Below, one piece after another: positions 1-64,000 of a stretch of DNA of 64,000 bases. The DNA is taken from the NCBI RefSeq assembly GCF_001625215.2, contig NC_030384.2:37172390-37236389 (forward strand). The letters are read 5' to 3'. A program made the position numbers and the translations under genes. The stretch's first letter is position 1, and each line of letters opens with the position of its first letter. Source of the stretch: Daucus carota subsp. sativus. Its lineage: Eukaryota > Streptophyta > Magnoliopsida > Apiales > Apiaceae. The notes under the pieces were generated by a model. That model had not been told where the DNA came from, made no database searches, and saw only the letters and a list, made by a program, of their open reading frames with translations.

Positions 1-3000
1 AAGTCTGTATAAGTTGGTTGGTGATACAGGAACAGCACCCATAACTCTTATAAAATCAAATACTGATAAATCAAGCATGTTCTCTTGCAACTTCTTGAAC
101 ATAAATGGATGTGCTATTGCTCGGAGATGTATATCATGGTCAATCCAAAAGCGACTTCCCAGAGGTAATAGTTCAAGTCCCAACATCATGTGATTCCCAG
201 TTAATATGACCGGGCCTTTGGATGGAATACCTGCAAGGCCCCTCACAATCTTCCCATTCTCTAATGTTGACAGCCTTACTGGACTAGTAATCTTCTCTAT
301 GAAGCTGATTTTCATCATTATTCGCAAAAGAATATAAGATCAATTCAAGTATATCCTACTTAAACTCAAGATTTTTCAAATTCTCCTAATAGTTACTAAC
401 ATTAGAGTGATCATCAGAGTATTAATATAAGGGTTAATAGGCAAAAAGATCACTGAACTCATGGCCAACTTGCAATTTGGTCACTGAACTCAAAAAGTTT
501 GCAAATGGATCACAAAACTAGATTTAACTTGCAGTCAACTCACTGAACTAATAAAAGGTTGCATTTAGGTCACAGCGCCGTTAAATATGAGTTGACTTTA
601 ACGGAATCCGTTAAAAAAATAAAAAAAAATCAGTTTTTTAAAAAATTATTAAAACTTAAAAAAAATCTGAAAATTTTGAAAAAACTTTAAAAAATATGAA
701 AAAATGTAAAAACTTTAAAAAAAATCCAAAAATTTTGAAAAAATTTAAAAAATCTCGAAACTCAAAAAATATACCTAATATTTGAAATTAAAAAAATTTC
801 AGAATTTTTTCTAAATTTCCATATATTTTTTTGAAGTTTTAAAATTTCAAAAAATTTAGATTTTTTGAAGTTCTTACATTTTTTCCATATTTTTATAAAC
901 TTACATATTTTTTTAAAATTTTCAGATTTTTTTTAAGTTTTCAAAATTTTTCAAAGAAAAATGAAATTTCATATTTGTTTTCAAAGTTTTTTATTATTAT
1001 TTTTTATATTTTTTAACGGATTCCGTTAAAGTCAACTCATACTTAACGGCGCTGTGACCTAAATGCAACCTTTTATTAGTTCAGTGAGTTGACTGCAAGT
1101 TAAATCTAGTTCTGTGATCTATTTGCAAACTTTTTGAGTTCAGTGACCCAATTGCAAGTTGGCCATGAGTTCAGTGATCTTTTTGCCTATTAACCCATTA
1201 ATATAATGCATTTAAATAGAACAAGGACTATTTAGCAAAAAAAAAAAAAATAGAACAAGGACAAATATAAGAAATAAGCACATCAGCTGTGATATTGTGT
1301 CGGATATCAGTTACCTGGTAGATTCATATAATTTCTTGAGTTCGGAAGGACTTGGGGGCAAATAATCTGATACATAATCACGGTATCTTTGACGGCGATA
1401 AAAACTGCTCCCAATTATAATAGTAACCAAGTCAATAGCACTTTCCTGTTGGATTTGATAACATCATAGCCTGTCAATTATATGCGTGTAACATGACATA
1501 CTGAGTTCAATTATGTAGATCCAATGTAAAAGGGTTAACATGACATACTGAGTTCAAGTATATGCTTATTATACATATAGAGAATAAGAGAAAACCTCTC
1601 ATACCAAGAAAAGAGCATGACCACTGTCATCAAAACATCGAATCTCACATATTGGCAGAATCTTCTTAAGTCTTTCAGCTTCCTCTTGACTTGGTAGTAG
1701 CCGATCCTTTCCACTGAAGACATTATACCAGAATTCGAATCAGAATTCAGGTTACTGCTATTTCTATAGAAACTTTGAAAACATTTGAATCAGGTTTTTG
1801 TAAAATTTAAATTCTAGTAAACATAAAAGTTCTGGTGATTTTGATGAATACACTTTTTAACTACAAAATTCAATAGAGTATGAATTGTGTTAGAGGAATG
1901 ACCTGGAGAGTATTAATGTCTGAGCTTTTACAGCATGAAGACGTGAATTAGCAAATGCACTTGCTGAGCTAACCAGCTTCACCTTCCAGAGAAGTGTTTT
2001 AGCAGATAAAACATCTGACAGGACCTGGTGTTGAACAAATTTGTACTATCAGAATGGAAGAGCAGAAATGAGATTTGAAAAATAACTATAAGAAAAATCT
2101 AAATAAGTGCAATACTTCAAGCCACAAAAGGGGCTTGTGTGTCATATCCACGTCAAAAACAGAGTGCTACCTATTTTACAAGTTTAATCCTCTTATGCAT
2201 GACCAATTTAAAAGAAATAATCAAAATTCACAATATATGCCAAGTACAAGGAGTTAATTATAGCTAGATCAATTAGTCTTGCTCAGTGTCAAGATCATAC
2301 AGAGAGGTATGATGATAATGATATGGCTCCTTCAGACATTTCTCCGATTGTCTGTTGCAGTGGAAGTCTTTTCTCCAAAGTAGCCATCACCAGCTTTGAA
2401 GGACTATCTGTGTGCAGGTGTAACAGTTTTATCAGGTTCAGAAGTTGATTTTACAGTAAACAGTTAGTGATTATCCTCTGAAGCCGAAGAAGATACAACA
2501 ACACATCCAATTATCTTTTTAATCAATTCTTTCACCCTCAGAAGAACATGGCACACTTGTTACCTAATGAACATCAAGGAAGAAAAGCTTTTCTTAATTT
2601 CTCTATTTACTTGTTAGTGAGAATGGAACACAATTAATATGGAATTTCTAACAACTCAATTATATCCCAGTCATCGACAGACAGTGAACAAACCTTATTT
2701 AAAGAAGAAATGGCCTAGCACTTTCATCTTAACGTCTAGTAACCTCACATAACTACAGTCAAATTATTTGACATGTAAGACAGTCTGGTATCTCATGGCT
2801 TAAGTTTTTTTCCCCGATAGTAGTGCATGGACAAACTAAGTGAAATTGACAACAAACCAATATAATATAAAAGTAACTCACTAATTCAGCTTGCTGAGAA
2901 TATAAAAGCAGAGTTAGACCTGTCATAAGGCTAAGCAAATATGGCACGCCAGAAAGGAGGTTGTCAGGCACTACATCTAATGGAGGTGTAGGAGGTGGAA

Positions 3001-4335
3001 GTTGGGACTCTCCAAGTGATGTAGCTGTCAAAACAAACATTTTTGACCGAACTATCAAGTTGTAATATTACTATACAAAATGTTAAATACCCAATTAGTA
3101 CATTCAGAGTCGCCCTCAACACTTAATAACAGTGTTATTGCAGAACAAACTCTTCACCTGGATTAGCCAAAATCAACACGAGATCGATATCAGGGTTACA
3201 GGCAGCAACGGCTAGTGCTAAGCATCCACCAAAAGATTCTCCGACAAGATATATTGGCCTATCTGGCGTGCGCTGGTTCTCCAATCTAACAGTTCTTTCA
3301 ACCAGTTTCACCAATTCTGAGCAATAAGAGATCGAAGAAGCATTATCATTGTTGAATGATAGCTGAGATAAATCTTGACCTATTAATATGGTACCAATAT
3401 CACAGAAAGGCCCATAACTGACAATAATAACCCTACTCATTAATCGTCACAAAATCTGACAAAAAAATGACTCTGTTATGCTTTATGTAATAAAGAGATG
3501 GGAAACAACCTGGAAATGGTGTCCGGTCATGAACAGGAATATGCAAGCACCATATATCAAAGATCCTTAAGAGGAACAAAAGAAACAAGAATAATCATAA
3601 TCATATACTATGTAAATAACGGTTTTTTATATGGTGTGCTCATGCGCACATATGCTAAGTAGTCAATTTTAGAAGTTTATCCTAGCATTTGACAATATTA
3701 TTCTTAAATTCTTGGGAAACGGTAATTTACAAAATTTATTTATAGCGTCCAGACTCCAGACTCCAGAGTGGTAATGAACTTACTGTCCAAGTCTTTGATA
3801 TTGCAAAGAAAGTCCAAGTCCAACTCCATCAAGACCTGCATTTTTTGATTATTACTATACCCCTGAATAATAAGGTATGCATGCAAAAAACACATAAAAA
3901 TAAATGTTGTCCCGTGACAAGTGATCAGTTCTCCTCAAAACGAGAGTTTCGTACCGTTAAATGAGTCATTGAGCCGTTATAATATATAAGATGAGTTTCA
4001 AACAGGGAACCTGGTAAAGAGAGCAAAAGAGGAGAGTTTTCGAGTGTAGAAGAGCACTCCAACGGGGAAAACCAACGTGGCGGACCACCGTCTGATGATG
4101 TGAGGAAATGTTTGGAGTGTTCTAAGTAGTCCTTGAAGCTCCGACGCTCCATTTCCTCGTTTTTCTCACCTGCTCTTTTTGACAGGGAACTACTCGTGTT
4201 TCTTGCACTAATTTCTGCAGTAGCTGAAATAAATAGCTTCCGCTTCCGCCGGAAAGTTGTCGTCGTCGGCAGAACGCGGGGAAGAGTCACCGGATAGTAA
4301 CCCGAAGCTGGAACTACGCTTACGCCGCCGGCCAT
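1..4335 (-). CDS. PES: phytyl ester synthase-like acyltransferase, chloroplastic (3' partial)
   Basis: Ten exons can be read on the minus strand: 4335-4011, 3835-3784, 3565-3510, 3316-3158, 3024-2920, 2407-2301, 2024-1903, 1713-1605, 1445-1315 and 304 to the window edge, all with GT-AG borders and matching phases (about 490 codons). The start at 4335 (MAGGVSV) begins a Ser/Arg/Thr-rich N-terminus that looks like a plastid transit peptide. An alpha/beta-hydrolase domain follows, with nucleophile motif GESFGG in exon 4, an Asp in SGKDRLLPS and a His in DDSGHALF (exon 8). Exon 10 enters the DAGAT-like acyltransferase domain (GNHMMLGLELLP, the NHxxxx[D/E] block). In the family these plastid enzymes esterify phytol and make diacylglycerol-derived triacylglycerol during senescence or stress. 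Family assignment is strong; PES1 and PES2 cannot be told apart here. The last exons lie outside the window. Confidence 0.92.
431..1196. mobile_element. long-TIR foldback (MULE-like MITE) in PES intron 9
   Basis: The two ends form about 180-bp near-identical terminal inverted repeats (431 to about 610, and about 1015 to 1196) starting GGGTTAATAGGCAAAAAGAT. A 10-bp direct duplication, ATTAATATAA, flanks the element at 421-430 and 1197-1206. The centre is A/T-rich with smaller imperfect palindromes and no coding capacity. Long TIRs and a 9-10-bp target duplication fit a non-autonomous Mutator-like foldback; the superfamily is inferred from these two traits only. Confidence 0.85.
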
Positions 4336-12200: not shown

Positions 12201-12313
12201 GAAGATGTGTTCGCAGTGAAATGGCATCATCAATACTCAATCAATGTAATACATTGTATACAGAGGTGGTATTACAAGAGGAAGAGAGGTCTTACATGAA
12301 GAAAAGAGTGTTA

Positions 12314-12420
12314 TTTTGTTTAGTAGCCAAGGATGACTTGCCTGCTCCAATGTCATCTAGTTGATCAACAGAGACTGGATTGGCTTGGTTTCAGGCAGTC
12401 ACCTTGGCTAACTTGACACC
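12314..12420 (+). ncRNA. MIR169: miR169 precursor hairpin
   Basis: The mature miRNA lies at 12324-12344: it begins TAGCCAAGGATGACTTGCCT and ends in G, which is a known plant miR169 isoform (21 nt). The opposite arm, 12392-12412, begins CAGGCAGTCACCTTGGCTA and pairs with the mature strand apart from small bulges, as expected for miR169*. The loop region (12345-12391) itself pairs partly: CCAATGTCATCT against AGACTGGATTGG. The flanks extend the stem. miR169 cleaves mRNAs of NF-YA (HAP2) transcription factors and is linked to drought, nitrogen and flowering responses. A TATA box at 12193 suits an independent transcript. The mature sequence is an exact recall of a conserved miRNA; expression is not shown by sequence. 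Confidence 0.93.
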
Positions 12421-12429
12421 CTCTTTTCT

Positions 12430-13570
12430 TTCATGCTAGACCCCGTCTTCTTTGATCCGACTGTTCAGTGGTTCCCCAAATGGAATGCTAGTTCTTGCTT
12501 CTACGGTTCCTCGTTGTGGTGTATGCTGCAGCTCAGCCTGCAGGCTGCAGTCACACTTCTGATCCTGCTATTCCATATGTGAGGGCATTACTTTAACGTA
12601 TATTACTTATTCCATATATACTGATTACTGCATAACCGCATAAAACTTAATTTTTGGATCTATCATTTCCATAAATGCAATGCGGCATCATACATAAGCA
12701 GCTGTTATTTTGTTATAACAAATATTATGCTGTCATACACAGAACATAATTATTTGAATCACAGACGTTAACATGTATCAATCCGTCTAAGCATGAACAA
12801 GATATGTTTCTGGGTCCGGGTCGCTCATACACATGATACAACATGTTATCAGCGAATTATTTTTTTCGCGAGATGACATTTACCCTAGACTTTTGATGAA
12901 AATAGAGGAGACTATGGCCGTCTTTTTGTGGAAAAATCACTCATTCTAAAATTTTAACAAATTGAATTTTCCTGCGTATGCTCCTTTTAATCTATTGGCA
13001 TGTACCATTACCCTTAATATAATAAGACACAAATGCCCAAAATGGTTATAAACCCTAATTCTGTATTGTATTTTGTTATAAATTTTTCATAACATATAAC
13101 TTATTTATTACGATAGAATAAAACATGAATTTTTGCAGGGAAATGGGAAGGAAGGAAAAGCAAATATATAGTTTACTGTCTTATTACCGATCATATATGA
13201 TTTTGACTCAAACTTCCCTAAACTTTTCGGTCAGTGACAATGGATGGAAAATATAAACGTCGAGAATGATTAAGCTAAACTCCCCTAAACTTCATAGTGT
13301 ATATATGTGTGTTTGCTAAATGGATGCATACAATTCAAATAAGTTAAGTAGTTAGATAACTTAAGTAATTGTGCATGTGTTAAATCTCTGTGTTATATCA
13401 TGGATGGCAAATTCCAAAAAGACCCCCCTTTTTCAATTCAAGTGTATTAACCAGATATTTTGTAGCTGGGAAAATTTGAATCTTATCCAATTTTTGTGCC
13501 TTCTCCGGTTATAATGTCATTCGATTCACTTGCACACTTCGAAATTTTATATAGCGGTTCATTCACTAAT
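12430..13570. other. intergenic, no gene seen
   Basis: A/T-rich sequence downstream of MIR169. A reading at both strands shows no coding stretch, tRNA or clear repeat. It contains the presumed 3' end of the MIR169 transcript. Confidence 0.4.
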
Positions 13571-24703: not shown

Positions 24704-25303
24704 TATCAACTCATCATTGAAGTGGCTGATCTCCACGGGGTCTCAAGTTGCTCACTAAACTCGCTTAATGGTATCAAACTCATCACTGCCGTTAAAAAAA
24801 GTAACGGAGGTTAGACGGAGTGACAGATTGGCGGTTGACGTGGCACATTAATAAAAAAGACTAAAGAAAAAAAAATAAAAAAAATAGAAAATAGAAATGC
24901 CACATAATTTGAAGTTTATATGGAAATAAAGTATGCAAACTTTCTGATTAAATTGATTTTAGGATATAATTATCTTCTTTTTTTTTGTGACAAATATGGC
25001 TTATATCCTAAAATCAATTTAATCAGAAAGTTTGCATACTTTATTTCCATATAAACTTCAAATTATGTGGCATTTCTATTTTCTATTCTTTTTATTTTCT
25101 TTCATTTTTTTTTCTTTAGTCTTTTTTTTTATTAATGTGCCACGTCAACCGCCAATCTGTCACTTCGTCTAACCTCCGTTACTTTTTTTAACGCCAGTGA
25201 TGAGTTTGATACCATTAAGCGAGTTTAGTGAGCAACTTGAGATCCCGTGGAGATCAGCGATGAAGTTGATACCATTTGTCCACTTCAGTGATGAGTTTGA
25301 TAA
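24704..25303. repeat. 600-bp foldback element, near-perfect inverted repeat
   Basis: The left arm (about 24704-24968) and right arm (about 25002-25303) are reverse complements with few changes, separated by about 33 bp rich in T. The right arm has about 22 bp extra near its outer end. Arms include GGTATCAAACTCATCACTG, TAACGGAGGTTAGACGGAGT and a long A/T part. It abuts the preceding MITE, and no separate target duplication could be defined. A transcript through it would form a hairpin of about 270 bp. Confidence 0.88.
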
Positions 25304-34960: not shown

Positions 34961-35163
34961 TCTGAAACCTACTGGACACCATCTTCCAACAAAACCAGAA
35001 GGTCTGCGATGAGCAGACTTGAGCAAAATCTGGTATAACTACATAGAATATTTTGGGTTATAGGCGCTCTCGACTTGACCTAGAATGATCAGTTAACTAG
35101 TAAAGCCGGAAGTAATAGATGGATTAATATTGTAATCTGGATAGACGACGAAGTGAGGGATAC

Positions 35164-37779
35164 TGTAATATCCCGTAATTTTTTAGAATAATATTAATTG
35201 ATTAGTAATAATAATAAAGGATTTAAAATTGGATTATGATTAGGATTTAAAATTGAATTAGGATAATAAGCCTATAATATGGGTCAAACTTGTATTCGGA
35301 TAACGGGTAGGTATAGAGTTAGGGTTTGCAGACTCTTTATATATTTATTCGTTCCCTCATCATTATTTTATAATCTTGTGAGAGCCTCGCAACTTTTTCT
35401 TCATTTTTCTTACAAAAATTCGCAGGCCTTTATTCACACAAATCAGCTTTCTTGTAAAATTCGTAGAAAATTCAATTCTTATCGGATTTCAATGATTCTT
35501 GATGTTTCGGAAAGCTCTTTCAATCTCCTACAACTTTCGTTCACAATGTTTTCTCAGATTCTTTTTCGAACTGTTCTCATAATCCCAAAACTTATTCAGA
35601 CCCTGTTTTTCGCTTCGAATCTGAGTCAGCAGATGTTTTATTTGATTCCCGATTCGTTATGAGTCCGTTTTCGACGAGCCATACCTTTTCGGAAAGGTCT
35701 TTTCGTTCTCTGCAACTTTTGTGTTTTGCGTTTTCCAAAACAATGTCGTTTAGGGGGTCAAAACAGTATATTAGTGATCTGGGCAGATTGGATTCATGGA
35801 GGCTTTTGGAGTTTTAGAGGAGATGATTGTGGTTGGTTGCTAAGGATTGATTATATGATCTAAGATGATGTTAATTATTGGTTTTCGGTGTTGTGGTAAG
35901 TTTCTGATTGATCTTTCTGGTATTTTTAAACTGATGTGTTATATGTTTATATTTGATCTATAAATTTGGGCTAAGTGATTATATTTTGAATTGATTTTTG
36001 TTCTCATATATGTGCGGTGTTGACGATGATTTCGGAACTCTCGATTTATGCCATGGTTTGTGAAAATAAGAATAAGAATAAGGACCGAGTCACCGGGTTA
36101 TAGTGACAGTTTTCAGAAAATTCAGGACCGTTATTGTAGTGGTCGTGGTATAAACTATGAGTTCTGAGTTATTGTTCACCATGTGATTGTGGCATCGAAT
36201 AAGAATATGAAAGTGTTTTGAAAGTATTTGTTGCGTATATTGTTATCGTATGATAAAAAAGTATATTTTATCTTATGTGTATACATGTTACTTGGCCCGA
36301 CTAGTTGGATCAATTAGTTGCTTGTTGGGCTGTATAGCTCATTACTCACAATTTTCAGGTTTGATTTAAGAGCGAGAGCGAGTTGATGTGCATTGGAATT
36401 GGGGTTTGAGGATATTAGATTTGGAGTAGCTTGACGTTTGAACTTCCGTTAGCTGCGCATTTGTAATAGTTACCTTTGTAATAGAATTTTAGATTAATAA
36501 ATTGTGTTGTATTTTAGTTTTGGATTTAGTTAATATCTCGAAAATTCGGGATGTTACGTGTCAAACTTATCTGAAATCTCATATCATCGAACTCCAATTC
36601 CAATGCACATCAACTCGCTCTTAAATCAAACCTGAAAATTGTAAGTAATGAGCTATACAGCCCAGCAAGCAACTAATCGATCCAACTAGTCGGGCCAAGT
36701 AACATGTATACACATAAGATAAAATATATTTTTTTATACGATAACAATATACGCAACAAATACTTTCAAAACACTTTCATCTTCTTATTCGATGCCACAA
36801 TCACATGGTGAACAATAACTCAGAACTCATAGTTTATACCACGACCACTACAACCCGGTGATAACGGTCCTGAATTTTCTGAAAACTGTCACTATAACCT
36901 CAGAGTTCCGAAATCATCGTCAACACCACACATATACGAGAACACAAATTAATTCAAAATATAATCACTTAGCCCAAATTTATATATCAAATATAAACAT
37001 ATAACACATCAGTTTAAAAATACCAGAAAGATCAATCAGAAACTTACCACAACACCGAAAACCAATAATTAACATCATCTTAGATCATATAATCAATCCT
37101 TAGCAACCAACCACAATCATCTCCTCTAAAACTCCAAAAGCCTCCATGAATCCAATCTGCCCAGATCACTAATATACTGTTTTGACCCCCTAAACGACAT
37201 TTTTTTGGAAAACGCAAAACACAAAAGTTGCAGAGAACGAAAAGACCTTTCCGAAAAGGTATGGCTCGTCGAAAACGGACTCATAACGAATCGGGAATCA
37301 AATAAAACATCTGCTGACTCAGATTCGAAGCGAAAAACAGGGTCTGAATAAGTTTTGGGATTATGAGAACAGTTCGAAAAAGAATCTGAGAAAACATTGT
37401 GAACGAAAGTTGTAGAAGATTGAAAGAGTTTTCCGAAACATCAAGAATCATCGAAATCCGATAAGAATTGAATTTTCTACGAATTTTACAAGAAAGCTGA
37501 TTTGTGTGAATAAAGGCCTGCGAATTTTTGTAAGAAAAATGAAGAAAAGGTTGCGAGGCTCTCACAAGATTATAAAATAATGATGAGGGAACGAATAAAT
37601 ATATAAAGAGTCTGCAAACCCTAACTCTATACCTACCCGTTATCCGAATACAAGTTTGACCCATATTATAGGCTCATTATCCTAATTCAATTTTAAATCC
37701 TAATCATAATCCAATTTTAAATCCTTTATTATTATTACTAATCAATTAATATTATTCTAAAAAATTACGGGATATTACA
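35164..37779. mobile_element. 2.6-kb palindromic LTR element (two inverted LTR-like arms)
   Basis: The element begins TGTAATATCCCGTAATTTTT and ends with the exact reverse complement, ...CGGGATATTACA, so it has TG...CA ends. The 5-bp duplication GATAC abuts both outer ends (35159-35163 and 37780-37784), the size made by LTR-retrotransposon integrases. The left arm (35164-36435) and right arm (36560-37779) are highly similar reverse complements; the matching 127-codon frames at 35279 (+) and 37281 (-) differ at two residues. The arms differ by several indels around 36050-36150 and 36370. The 124-bp loop ends CGGGATGTTAC, the expected 3' end of an LTR, so the left side is a full-length LTR of about 1.39 kb and the right side an inverted copy lacking its last part. 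TATATATT at about 35338 may be the LTR promoter. No gag-pol is present. Confidence 0.9.
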
Positions 37780-38034
37780 GATACTGATCAGTGTTGAGAT
37801 ATATGATCAAGCATGGTAAACTAGATAACATACGGAATGCATATAAAACTCACATATACAGTGATCTGTCAAATTATATCAAACCGCTTGAATATTTGTT
37901 ATGATGTAGACCGACAAATAAGGGTCGTATTCTCGAGAAGACAATATCTATCAATTCCTATTCAGTTACGATTATTAAATTTACGACAAAAATATTCTAT
38001 CAAACTTGCCACGAATGTTCATAACAGATTACGT

Positions 38035-61539: not shown

Positions 61540-64000
61540 ATGAGCGAGAGGCCGGTGCCGAGGAGAGAGAGCCCGTGGGGTACGCCGGAGGGAGAGCACC
61601 GGCAACCCAAAGCTCACCGCTGCAATGATCGCGCTGAAGATGTTATTCAGGTCTTCATCCCCTTTCCTCCTCATTTTCATTACCTTTTTTATCCTTTACT
61701 TGTACAAATTTTAAATTTTGCAATTTCTATTCTTCGATTCAATACCTTTGTCTATTATTTAAATCATGAGAAATTAGTTTAAATCTATAAGCTTTAAATA
61801 TCAAGTGAAGCAATTATAACGGACTTTTTTGCATCTCTGGTATACAGACTTGGTACACTAATTCTAAAGATGCATTATAATTTGCTCCACATTCCAAGCA
61901 TTATTTTATTTAATTATTCAAGGTTAGTACAGAATTGGTATGGTGGCTTCCCGGTTGCTTGTCTGTTACAAACCGGTCATTTGTTTGAGCAGGGTTTTAA
62001 TATTAACAAAAAAAACAAAATTATATTTAAGTACTGTTTGGATATTTACATACTCTGAGGTTGGTGACTTTTTGTAGATGTCAGTAAGTAGTTTTCATTA
62101 GTGACTCGGTGTGTAGTTATTTGTAATATGAATGAGTCGGTATCACAACTTTGTAGCAGTTTCCTTCTTTTGTCTATGTATTAAGCTCAGGCCTACTTGC
62201 ACCTTTATACCAATGAGAGGAAAAAAGAAAGATTTCAAATATCAGTGACATGACATCTAACTGGAAGCACTTAACAATTAGATTCAAGTTGCAAATGCAC
62301 TAATCACTATGTTATGGACTCTAAATGATCATAAAATGTAACATCCTCAGAAAATGGCTGTTTTCACTTTCCTTTTTGCATTGAAGATTTTTGTGGTTTG
62401 GAATATTGGATACTTTGTTTGTAGAATATAAAACTGATTTTTTTATTAATTCTTGTTCCTCTGAAAAAGAGATTACATCCATATTTAAAACAAACGTACT
62501 TGACTCCTAACAATACTCTGCTACTTCTAATAATCTCCTAAAACAAGATAGACTCAATACCTCCTACAAACTCTCTAAAACTCCAACAATCATCCAACTA
62601 CTTCAATCTAAAATTAATCCTCAAAATAAATAACTAAACAAATAATAATAATAACTAAATTTAAGATTATTCCAACAATCACTCCCATAATCTTAAATTT
62701 ACTTAACAGAATTTATAAAGCACTTCTCTTCATTTTGTGATGCACTTCTCACCACCACCAATATGTTAATGCACTTCTCATTAACACCAATTTGTTGATG
62801 CACTTCTCATCAACGCCAAATTTACTGGAGCACTTATCTCCAGGTTCACATAATCACCCATAATTCTAATGTTCTCTCCAGGTGCACATAATCACCCATA
62901 ATTCTAAAGGAGAGGTTCTCCCTCTACTCCGTCAAAAAAAAAAACGCAAGATCCATCTCGTTCTGCATGGCACTCTATCTCATTTTCTGCCTTCAGCACG
63001 CTTCTCCGGCATTGCCTCGTCTTTCTCGGCAGCCCCATACTACACATGCATCCCATACTACACATGTAGCTTTGCCACCATCCTTCCGCAACGCCAACCT
63101 GAAACTACCTCGTCGGACACTTATTCCGCGCCTCCACCACCGGCGGCGTCTTTACCACCGGCGGCGGAACAACAAAACCTCGCTCTGATGCCAAGTGTAG
63201 AATATAAAACTGATTTTTTTATTAATTCTTGTTCCTCTGAAAAAGAGATTACATCCATATTTAAAACAAACGTACTTGACTCCTAACAATACTCTGCTAC
63301 TTCTAATAATCTCCTAAAACAAGATAGACTCAATACCTCCTACAAACTCTCTAAAACTCCAACAATCATCCAACTACTTCAATCTAAAATTAATCCTCAA
63401 AATAAATAACTAAACAAATAATAATAATAACTAAATTTAAGATTATTCCAACATTGTTAACTGTGATCAGGAATTCAGGATGTGAAATGCTTTATTACCT
63501 GGACTCGCTACATATCCAAGTGTTGGCCTCAGCAATTTTTTTAAAATTATACATGTTTTTGACCTAAAATAAGTGTCCGAGTGTCCATATTCATGTCCCA
63601 GTGTCGAGTGTCCGACACGGTATTGGAGTTGAGTGAAGAGTCGGGGTGACAAAGGTGATTTATGTTCTTTGTAGAATAAGATTTCAGTTGTGTTTCCCTT
63701 GTTCTGTGACAGAACAAATGTTATCCCAAATACACTAATACTGAATGTTGGCCTTAACTGAGCTGTTGTGGTAAATTTTATTTCGTTCTATATCTATGGC
63801 AAAATAAGAGAAAGATGAAATACACATTCTTTTAGATAATTTATTAGTTTACTGAGACCATGAATGTCTTTAATGGAAACTAAGAAGTCTAAAACCACCA
63901 ACTTTTTGGAACAGCCAGAGTACTAATTATGGTTCCTTTTCTTGTATTTGAATTGATTATATTCTTTTTTTGTAGGCTTGCTTTGAAGGTAACCCATTTA
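61540..64000 (+). CDS. small conserved plant protein, 5' end (function not recognised)
   Basis: Exon 1 is 61540-61650 (MSERPVPRRESPWGTPEGEH...DVIQ, 37 codons) and ends in a good donor, CAG|GTCTTC. Exon 2 begins at 63976 after TTTTTTTGTAG and continues past the window (ACFEGNPF...). The phase-0 join reads AEDVIQ|ACFEGNPF, which I recall from a small, well-conserved, plant-wide protein of unknown function. Exon 1 is hydrophilic, with Pro, Arg and His and one Cys (HRCND); no signal peptide or membrane segment is visible. The 2,325-bp intron contains a complete TRIM-like retroelement. Confidence 0.75.
62420..62677 (-). repeat. LTR (3' LTR in element orientation)
   Basis: 258 bp, the same as the copy at 63196-63453. 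It is next to the polypurine tract at about 62680-62700. Confidence 0.93.
62718..62905. repeat. short tandem repeats inside the TRIM-like element
   Basis: The phrase GCACTT(C/A)TC(A/T) recurs at 62720, 62742, 62771, 62800 and 62830, with spacings of 22-30 bp. A second unit, CACATAATCACCCATAATTC, occurs at about 62847 and 62885. Confidence 0.8.
63196..63453 (-). repeat. LTR (5' LTR in element orientation)
   Basis: 258 bp, next to the primer-binding-site motif at 63180-63193 (minus strand). It is followed on the plus side by the TTGTT duplication. Confidence 0.93.

Follow-up and report, generated by a model that had tools for sequence, protein, structure and literature searches.

Several described systems come close to parts of the structure reported here. 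In the passages of the literature drawn on here, complex LTR retrotransposon insertions are two-parent fusions that carry one 5-bp target duplication and are ascribed to abnormal template switching (Sabot and Schulman 2007, PMC1950507). In Arabidopsis ddm1, truncated and chimeric LTR-retrotransposon circles and insertions are described, including two truncated insertions with clear target duplications (PMC10462705). TRIM elements consist of a pair of direct LTRs with a very short internal domain between them (PMC6934838), and DIRS-1 has inverted LTRs, three ORFs and a tyrosine recombinase (PMC5633606). Finally, palindromic LTR-LTR junctions are described for retroviral two-LTR circles. In the open-access literature, covered by titles and the starts of abstracts and with subscription journals mostly outside, we encountered no inverse-LTR insertions with a shared target duplication.

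The window, i.e. the whole stretch of 64,000 nucleotides analysed here, is C4:37172390-37236389 of the 441-Mb Daucus carota subsp. sativus genome (NC_030384.2), as given by one assembly. At 35164-37779 a full LTR of 1,394 bp is followed head-on by an inverted 1,222-bp part of the same LTR. Both ends of this insert read inward as TGTAATATCCCG..., and its termini are TG...CA. The coordinates, these termini and the GATAC copies at 35159-35163 and 37780-37784 are all as the first-pass annotation of this DNA described them; the duplication is 5 bp long and does not extend beyond. The features are the following.

35159..35163, no strand: left copy of the target duplication GATAC, read from the sequence; one copy is present at the unoccupied site L067.
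35164..36557, plus strand: left arm, a complete LTR TGTAATATCCCG...CGGGATGTTAC minus the last A of the LTR, from the alignment and genomic relatives.
36437..36557, plus strand: end of the left LTR, without counterpart in the right arm (the "loop"), from the gapped alignment.
36556..36557, no strand: joint with a 2-bp overlap, AC; the relatives among the matches listed lie within 1-58 or within 56-141 of 36500-36640, and none of them covers both.
36558..37779, minus strand: right arm, an inverted LTR covering its positions 1 to ~1,273, from the alignment and relatives.
37780..37784, no strand: right copy of the target duplication GATAC, read from the sequence; one copy is present at the unoccupied site L067.

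An ungapped search finds the arms as an inverted repeat of 879 nt at 99% without gaps, plus further inner blocks. The gapped alignment pairs them over LTR 1-1273 and shows 28 substitutions as well as indels of 52, 8, 6, 3 and 1 bp. The right arm lacks the final ~120 bp of the LTR and carries a private 52-bp deletion at LTR ~880-931. What had been called a 124-bp loop is indeed unpaired, but it is the last ~120 bp of the left LTR. At the joint the left LTR reads ...TTAC and then continues into right-arm sequence, with the terminal A missing; among the matches listed 19 others in the genome cover the query from 1 to 1391-1394, and many of these LTRs terminate in CGGGATGTTACA. The inverse LTRs of the window copy meet directly, with no internal domain between them, and the direct LTRs that define an LTR retrotransposon are not present. 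No ORF of at least 150 codons, stop to stop, lies in 35164-37779, the insert has no further match within the window at E 1e-5, and a viral-contig pattern scan found nothing.

Other features were noticed in the window. On the minus strand at 62415-63458 there is a young short LTR element, with two 258-bp LTRs that are 100% identical (62420-62677 and 63196-63453), TTGTT on both sides and a primer-site-like CTTGGCATCAGAGC (reverse strand) adjoining the LTR. A MIR169 microRNA precursor at 12300-12430 has an Rfam match on both strands. Two fold-back repeats, at 431-1196 and 24725-25258 (best arms 96% and 89-93%), are probably DNA-transposon MITEs.

The parental element, which the first-pass annotation proposed to search for with the left arm, was found, and it is a short non-autonomous LTR element. 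A genome search with the whole insert as query gave at least 116 matches, grouped into 38 loci; the best 40 of 336 candidates were scored, and the family match counts are lower bounds. Among the matches listed, nine of the 38 loci match only ~LTR 1-655, and these belong to related LTR families. Three loci (L005, L006, L007) are direct pairs of 1.37-1.38-kb LTRs flanking ~205 bp. Directly after the LTR the internal domain reads GTTGGTATCAGAGC in L007, with variants in L005 and L006, and it ends with AAGGAGGGTAGA ahead of the next LTR. We take these motifs to be the primer binding site at the start and the polypurine tract at the end. In the four internal domains read, the primer-site motif TGGTATCAGAGC is present in L007 and L013 and in variant form in L005 and L006. 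The whole internal domain is found at no fewer than 20 of the 40 listed places (best 40 of 53 candidates scored), some of which are related families with other, longer LTRs (L061, L062).

The LTRs of the family have TG...CA ends, and duplications of 5 bp flank 10 of the 14 single or paired copies checked. Eight were identified by script at 5/5, and those of L005 and L018 were read by eye, the script having chosen a wrong end. The flanks of L016 agree at four of five bases, and L007, L012 and L014 show no duplication; the script's end was wrong for L012 as well, and L014 is the 3' LTR inside an element. The direct pairs, the primer site, the polypurine tract and the 5-bp duplications together identify the arms as genuine LTRs belonging to a non-autonomous element. 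Its 205-bp domain holds only the primer site and the polypurine tract and leaves no coding room for gag-pol. An autonomous partner was not found among the genomic relatives of the LTR, and placing the family in the Ty3/Gypsy superfamily, as the first-pass annotation did, is a guess. In the related families, L021 has 990-bp direct LTRs that have sequence in common with the query only at LTR positions 1-654, L038, L040 and L044 form tandem direct arrays of at least three LTR-like units with start-to-start distances of ~1.7-3.4 kb, and L061-L063 contain direct repeats of ~1.9-2.2 kb.

When the flanks of the window insert were joined with one GATAC and searched against the genome, both flanks were recovered together with one paralogous stretch on C2 whose match extends across the join, covering positions 29-184 of the 200-base query at 84%. 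This stretch (L067) continues uninterrupted at the site, where GATAC occurs once and the insert is absent. At the local base composition, the chance of a matching 5-mer is 0.0015, and that of a match at four or more of five bases, as in the locus L001 described below, is 0.022. Because the paralogous site is unoccupied and has one GATAC, the palindrome came in as one piece and made the duplication. The GATAC duplication, for which a fortuitous match had been considered, is thus real. The first-pass reading, insertion of a preformed palindrome as a single unit, is supported both by this empty site and by two further palindromic insertions with flank duplications.

The first of these, L001 (C5:18918293-18921750, 3,458 bp), has the U3 ends outside, arms at 87% and an additional direct LTR piece in the middle. 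Its flanks, GCTGT and ACTGT, agree at four of five bases. The left flank matches Pfam RT_RNaseH (2e-14), the right flank, which is short, gave no Pfam match, and one frame is open through the joined flanks. The second, L002 (C2:20438337-20440357), has the U5 ends outside and ATTAA on both sides (5/5), and consists of a complete inverse LTR, ~33 bp of filler and forward LTR 797-1394. Unoccupied relatives on C5 (L068, L069) run through the L002 site at 92% and 90%, with a target one T shorter than ATTAA. L003 has the same flanks as L002 and L004 the same right flank, so all three are counted as one event. The right flank of L002 recurs at more than 30 places within C2:18.39-21.07 Mb, beginning a few bases past the insertion site. 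The breakpoints of the window, L001 and L002 differ, which indicates separate origins.

To estimate frequency, the genome was scanned for the motif TCACCGGGTTATAGTGACAG with at most two mismatches, giving 34 places and one control match. The motif marks 28 loci, or 26 once duplicated C2 and C6 places are merged. Three palindromic events occur at the 26 independent motif loci, with 25 of the 28 loci examined (C3:16461807, C4:32244289 and C6:20079023 were left out); five motif loci carry direct LTR pairs or remnants (L005, L006, L007, L013, L059). The motif sits toward the 3' part of the LTR, and palindromes of the 5' part alone, such as L056, escape the scan. A pattern for the LTR start was found at 48 + 56 places (control 4 + 3), and among the first 100 of these 104 the opposed, outward-starting pairs within 5 kb are the window and L001.

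Two candidates were not counted. L058 (C1) resembles a palindrome with U5 ends outside, made from a different LTR family. Its flanks, however, are inverse copies of each other too, and it is therefore part of a larger inverted structure. L056 has a cut left arm and no visible duplication; at its positions 1879-2520 (in C8:31968776-31973295), LTR 1-361 folds back around the U3 end with a short loop and an exact right end. Other inverse arrangements were also seen. In the relative L047, at 1812-3479, the U3 end of an LTR abuts an internal domain in inverse orientation, present from about position 23 up to the polypurine tract; no duplication is visible around this inverse joint. There is also a palindromic repeat of ~840 bp (L064, L065 and L066 on C7, C3 and C1, with L066 cut on the left), and among the 100 places listed for it nine opposed pairs are spaced 201-222 bp. 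Its arms share stretches of ~70-80% with LTR 287-486 and 530-619, and from these similarities it may be a multi-copy palindrome with LTR-derived arms.

The joint itself was examined with a query of 141 bases (window 36500-36640). Among 73 matches, with the best 40 of 88 candidates scored, the window alone covers the whole query; the others listed fall within 1-58 or within 56-141. As the window alone spans the joint among the candidates scored, there is no sign of this palindrome having multiplied. The inner 85 bp of the right arm are 99% identical to the LTRs of L013 (C8) and L017 (C3), whereas the left arm of the window matches that side of the joint at 86% over 75-141. The nearest relatives of the left and right arms also differ at LTR 800-880 and beyond 1,120.

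We then asked at which sites the arms differ. Seven of the 18 inter-arm substitutions in LTR 1-1236 affect sites at which each of the two states is found in two or more of 19 other copies, the expected share being 0.092 per new mutation (P = 7e-4), and with thresholds of three and four copies the count is 4 of 18 each (P = 0.016 and 0.003), in a test that ignores recurrent mutation at hot sites, whose copies recombine and of whose 19 copies two are parts of L002. The L001 sequences were dropped before counting, together with L020, both L003 parts, L005b, L006b and L007b as one of each duplicate or LTR pair. Substitutions between the arms are denser near the joint, with 7/800 in LTR 1-800 versus 21/412 beyond (P = 9e-6); beyond LTR 800 without the last 37 sites there are 11/375 (P = 0.011). 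The arms thus differ at family polymorphisms above the expectation for new mutations, and, judged by this pattern of sequence differences, two templates were probably joined rather than one molecule. Over their outer 800 bp the arms share 99.1% identity and are mostly nearer to each other than to any copy compared, which could reflect a third template or further switch, near-identical parents, or later gene conversion between the arms.

We consider it likely that the insert is a one-off integrant, in which two LTR cDNAs were fused by strand switching or end joining before integration and inserted as a unit. The first-pass annotation had suggested a self-primed or strand-switched cDNA; here the joining of two templates is favoured over a purely self-primed hairpin. 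Synthesis of plus-strand strong-stop DNA begins with the first base of U3 and that of the minus strand with the last base of U5, and it is by the terminal bases that integrase recognises each LTR end. A complete LTR cDNA and a second one, broken off or left unfinished ~120 bp short of its U5 end, would have been joined U5 to U5 via the 2-bp overlap in the course of reverse transcription. This joining would take place at the cDNA stage, between two molecules, and either strand switching or host end joining could perform it. The resulting linear DNA would carry a genuine U3 terminus (TG) at each end, and a retroelement integrase acting in trans would accept both ends, insert the unit and duplicate GATAC; two ends of one kind may suffice for the enzyme. 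Joints of U5 to U5 would leave U3 outside and joints on the U3 side would leave U5 outside, and both types are seen. The strand starts at the first U3 base or last U5 base would explain the exact outer ends. Both the short overlap at the window joint and the filler in L002 are in keeping with strand switching or end joining. Several points weigh against this reading: duplex ends ready for integrase are assumed at both termini, and the near-identity of the outer 800 bp needs near-identical parents, a further switch or gene conversion. The limits of the polymorphism test given above, the imperfect flank agreement and missing right-flank Pfam match of L001, and the shorter target at L068 and L069 also count against it.

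The arms could instead stem from one molecule, if a plus-strand strong-stop LTR DNA had turned back on itself close to the U5 end and served as its own template, with all arm differences arising after insertion. The closeness of the arms across LTR 1-800 agrees with this, as does the absence of the 52-bp deletion (right arm) and of the 8-bp deletion and 6-bp duplication (left arm) from all 25 other LTR sequences, and L056 resembles such a fold-back with a short loop, though with its left arm cut and no duplication. However, the inner end of the right arm matches L013 and L017 and not the left arm, shared family polymorphisms are in excess, and a fold-back would be expected to yield a single duplex end and not two, so we regard this origin as unlikely.

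Autointegration, in which integrase transferred the U5 end of one LTR cDNA into an inverse second LTR and the product then integrated, appears quite improbable. Such a strand transfer should keep the last base of the LTR, and the absence of this A at the window joint speaks against a joint made by integrase, as do the 2-bp overlap and the ~33 bp of filler between both LTR parts in L002. The general layout is of the right kind, since the window joint has an LTR end on one side and LTR interior on the other, and L002 is nearly alike, with the U3 end of the complete LTR facing internal LTR sequence.

A transposon family with inverted LTR-like ends, multiplying as such, had been offered as the alternative in the first-pass annotation and is very improbable. 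Several palindromes with this LTR do exist, and the uniform ~840-bp palindromic repeat has short stretches in common with it, but only the window matches the insert over its full length (best 40 of 336 candidates scored), the joint is found nowhere else among the best 40 of 88 candidates scored, and L001, L002 and L056 differ from the window in their breakpoints. The layout is hardly credible as the outcome of two LTRs inserting separately, or of nesting and a later deletion, with flanks matching by accident at the chances given above, even though rearranged LTRs are common in plants, because the unoccupied site has one GATAC with continuous flanks and the same kind of layout occurs at two more sites. 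An inverted duplication or collapse in the assembly deserves equally little credence: the locus is known from a single assembly, but the arms differ by substitutions and by five indels of up to 52 bp, the right arm carries sequence matching other copies, and palindromes of the L002 type occur three times with flanks in common, one copy being cut on the left.

Returning to fused LTR cDNAs, the same kind of event at three separate places suggests that retroelement copying can yield mirror-image DNA that is still accepted by the integration machinery. The palindromic LTR insertions, with their duplications and empty sites, point to a retroelement integrase that is able to insert DNA ending in U3 on both sides or in U5 on both sides, and to repeated entry into the germ line of products of strand switching or end joining among cDNAs. 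Such palindromes could also serve, just as they are, as sources of long double-stranded RNA that matches a whole LTR family, which makes the origin of silencing triggers testable. In maize, Mu killer, an inverted Mutator copy, feeds small RNAs against Mutator. As a tentative and rather doubtful extension, head-to-head LTR cDNA dimers of both polarities might be a regular integrating by-product of this family, with about one palindromic event per nine recognisable loci, and their hairpin transcripts might feed small RNAs against the family in the manner of Mu killer. LTR finders look for direct repeats, so palindromic insertions may be misfiled as solo LTRs or as DNA transposons with long TIRs.

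Among known systems, MULE and other long-TIR DNA transposons make target duplications of 8-11 bp. A MULE or foldback transposon was rejected, given the 5-bp duplication and arms that are LTRs found elsewhere as direct pairs with primer site and polypurine tract. DIRS-like elements make no target duplication. The window insert resembles DIRS-1, as described in the source used, in having inverted LTRs around the element, but a DIRS-like element is ruled out by the 5-bp duplication and the empty site, by the lack of an ORF of at least 150 codons, and by the direct-LTR relatives. Two-LTR circles join both LTRs in direct order. The retroviral junctions, to the extent that the source covers them, resemble the window in the palindromic sequence at the LTR-LTR joint, whereas the window has a U5-to-U5 joint within a linear, integrated insert. 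For a TRIM, an LTR length of 1.38 kb is high. The parent family is like the TRIMs of the cited description in its internal domain of ~205 bp and unlike them in LTR length, and the window copy differs further in its inverse LTRs and missing internal domain. The ddm1 insertions agree with the window insert in that aberrant cDNA products can integrate; however, the truncated ones all had two LTRs, and the word "inverted" does not occur in that text (PMC10462705). The template-switch complexes of Sabot and Schulman are, from the part of that paper drawn on, the nearest printed case that we encountered. They are in direct orientation with a shared LTR, three direct LTRs and two internal domains, whereas the window insert has inverse LTRs and no internal domain, but like it they are a single fused insertion with one shared 5-bp duplication.
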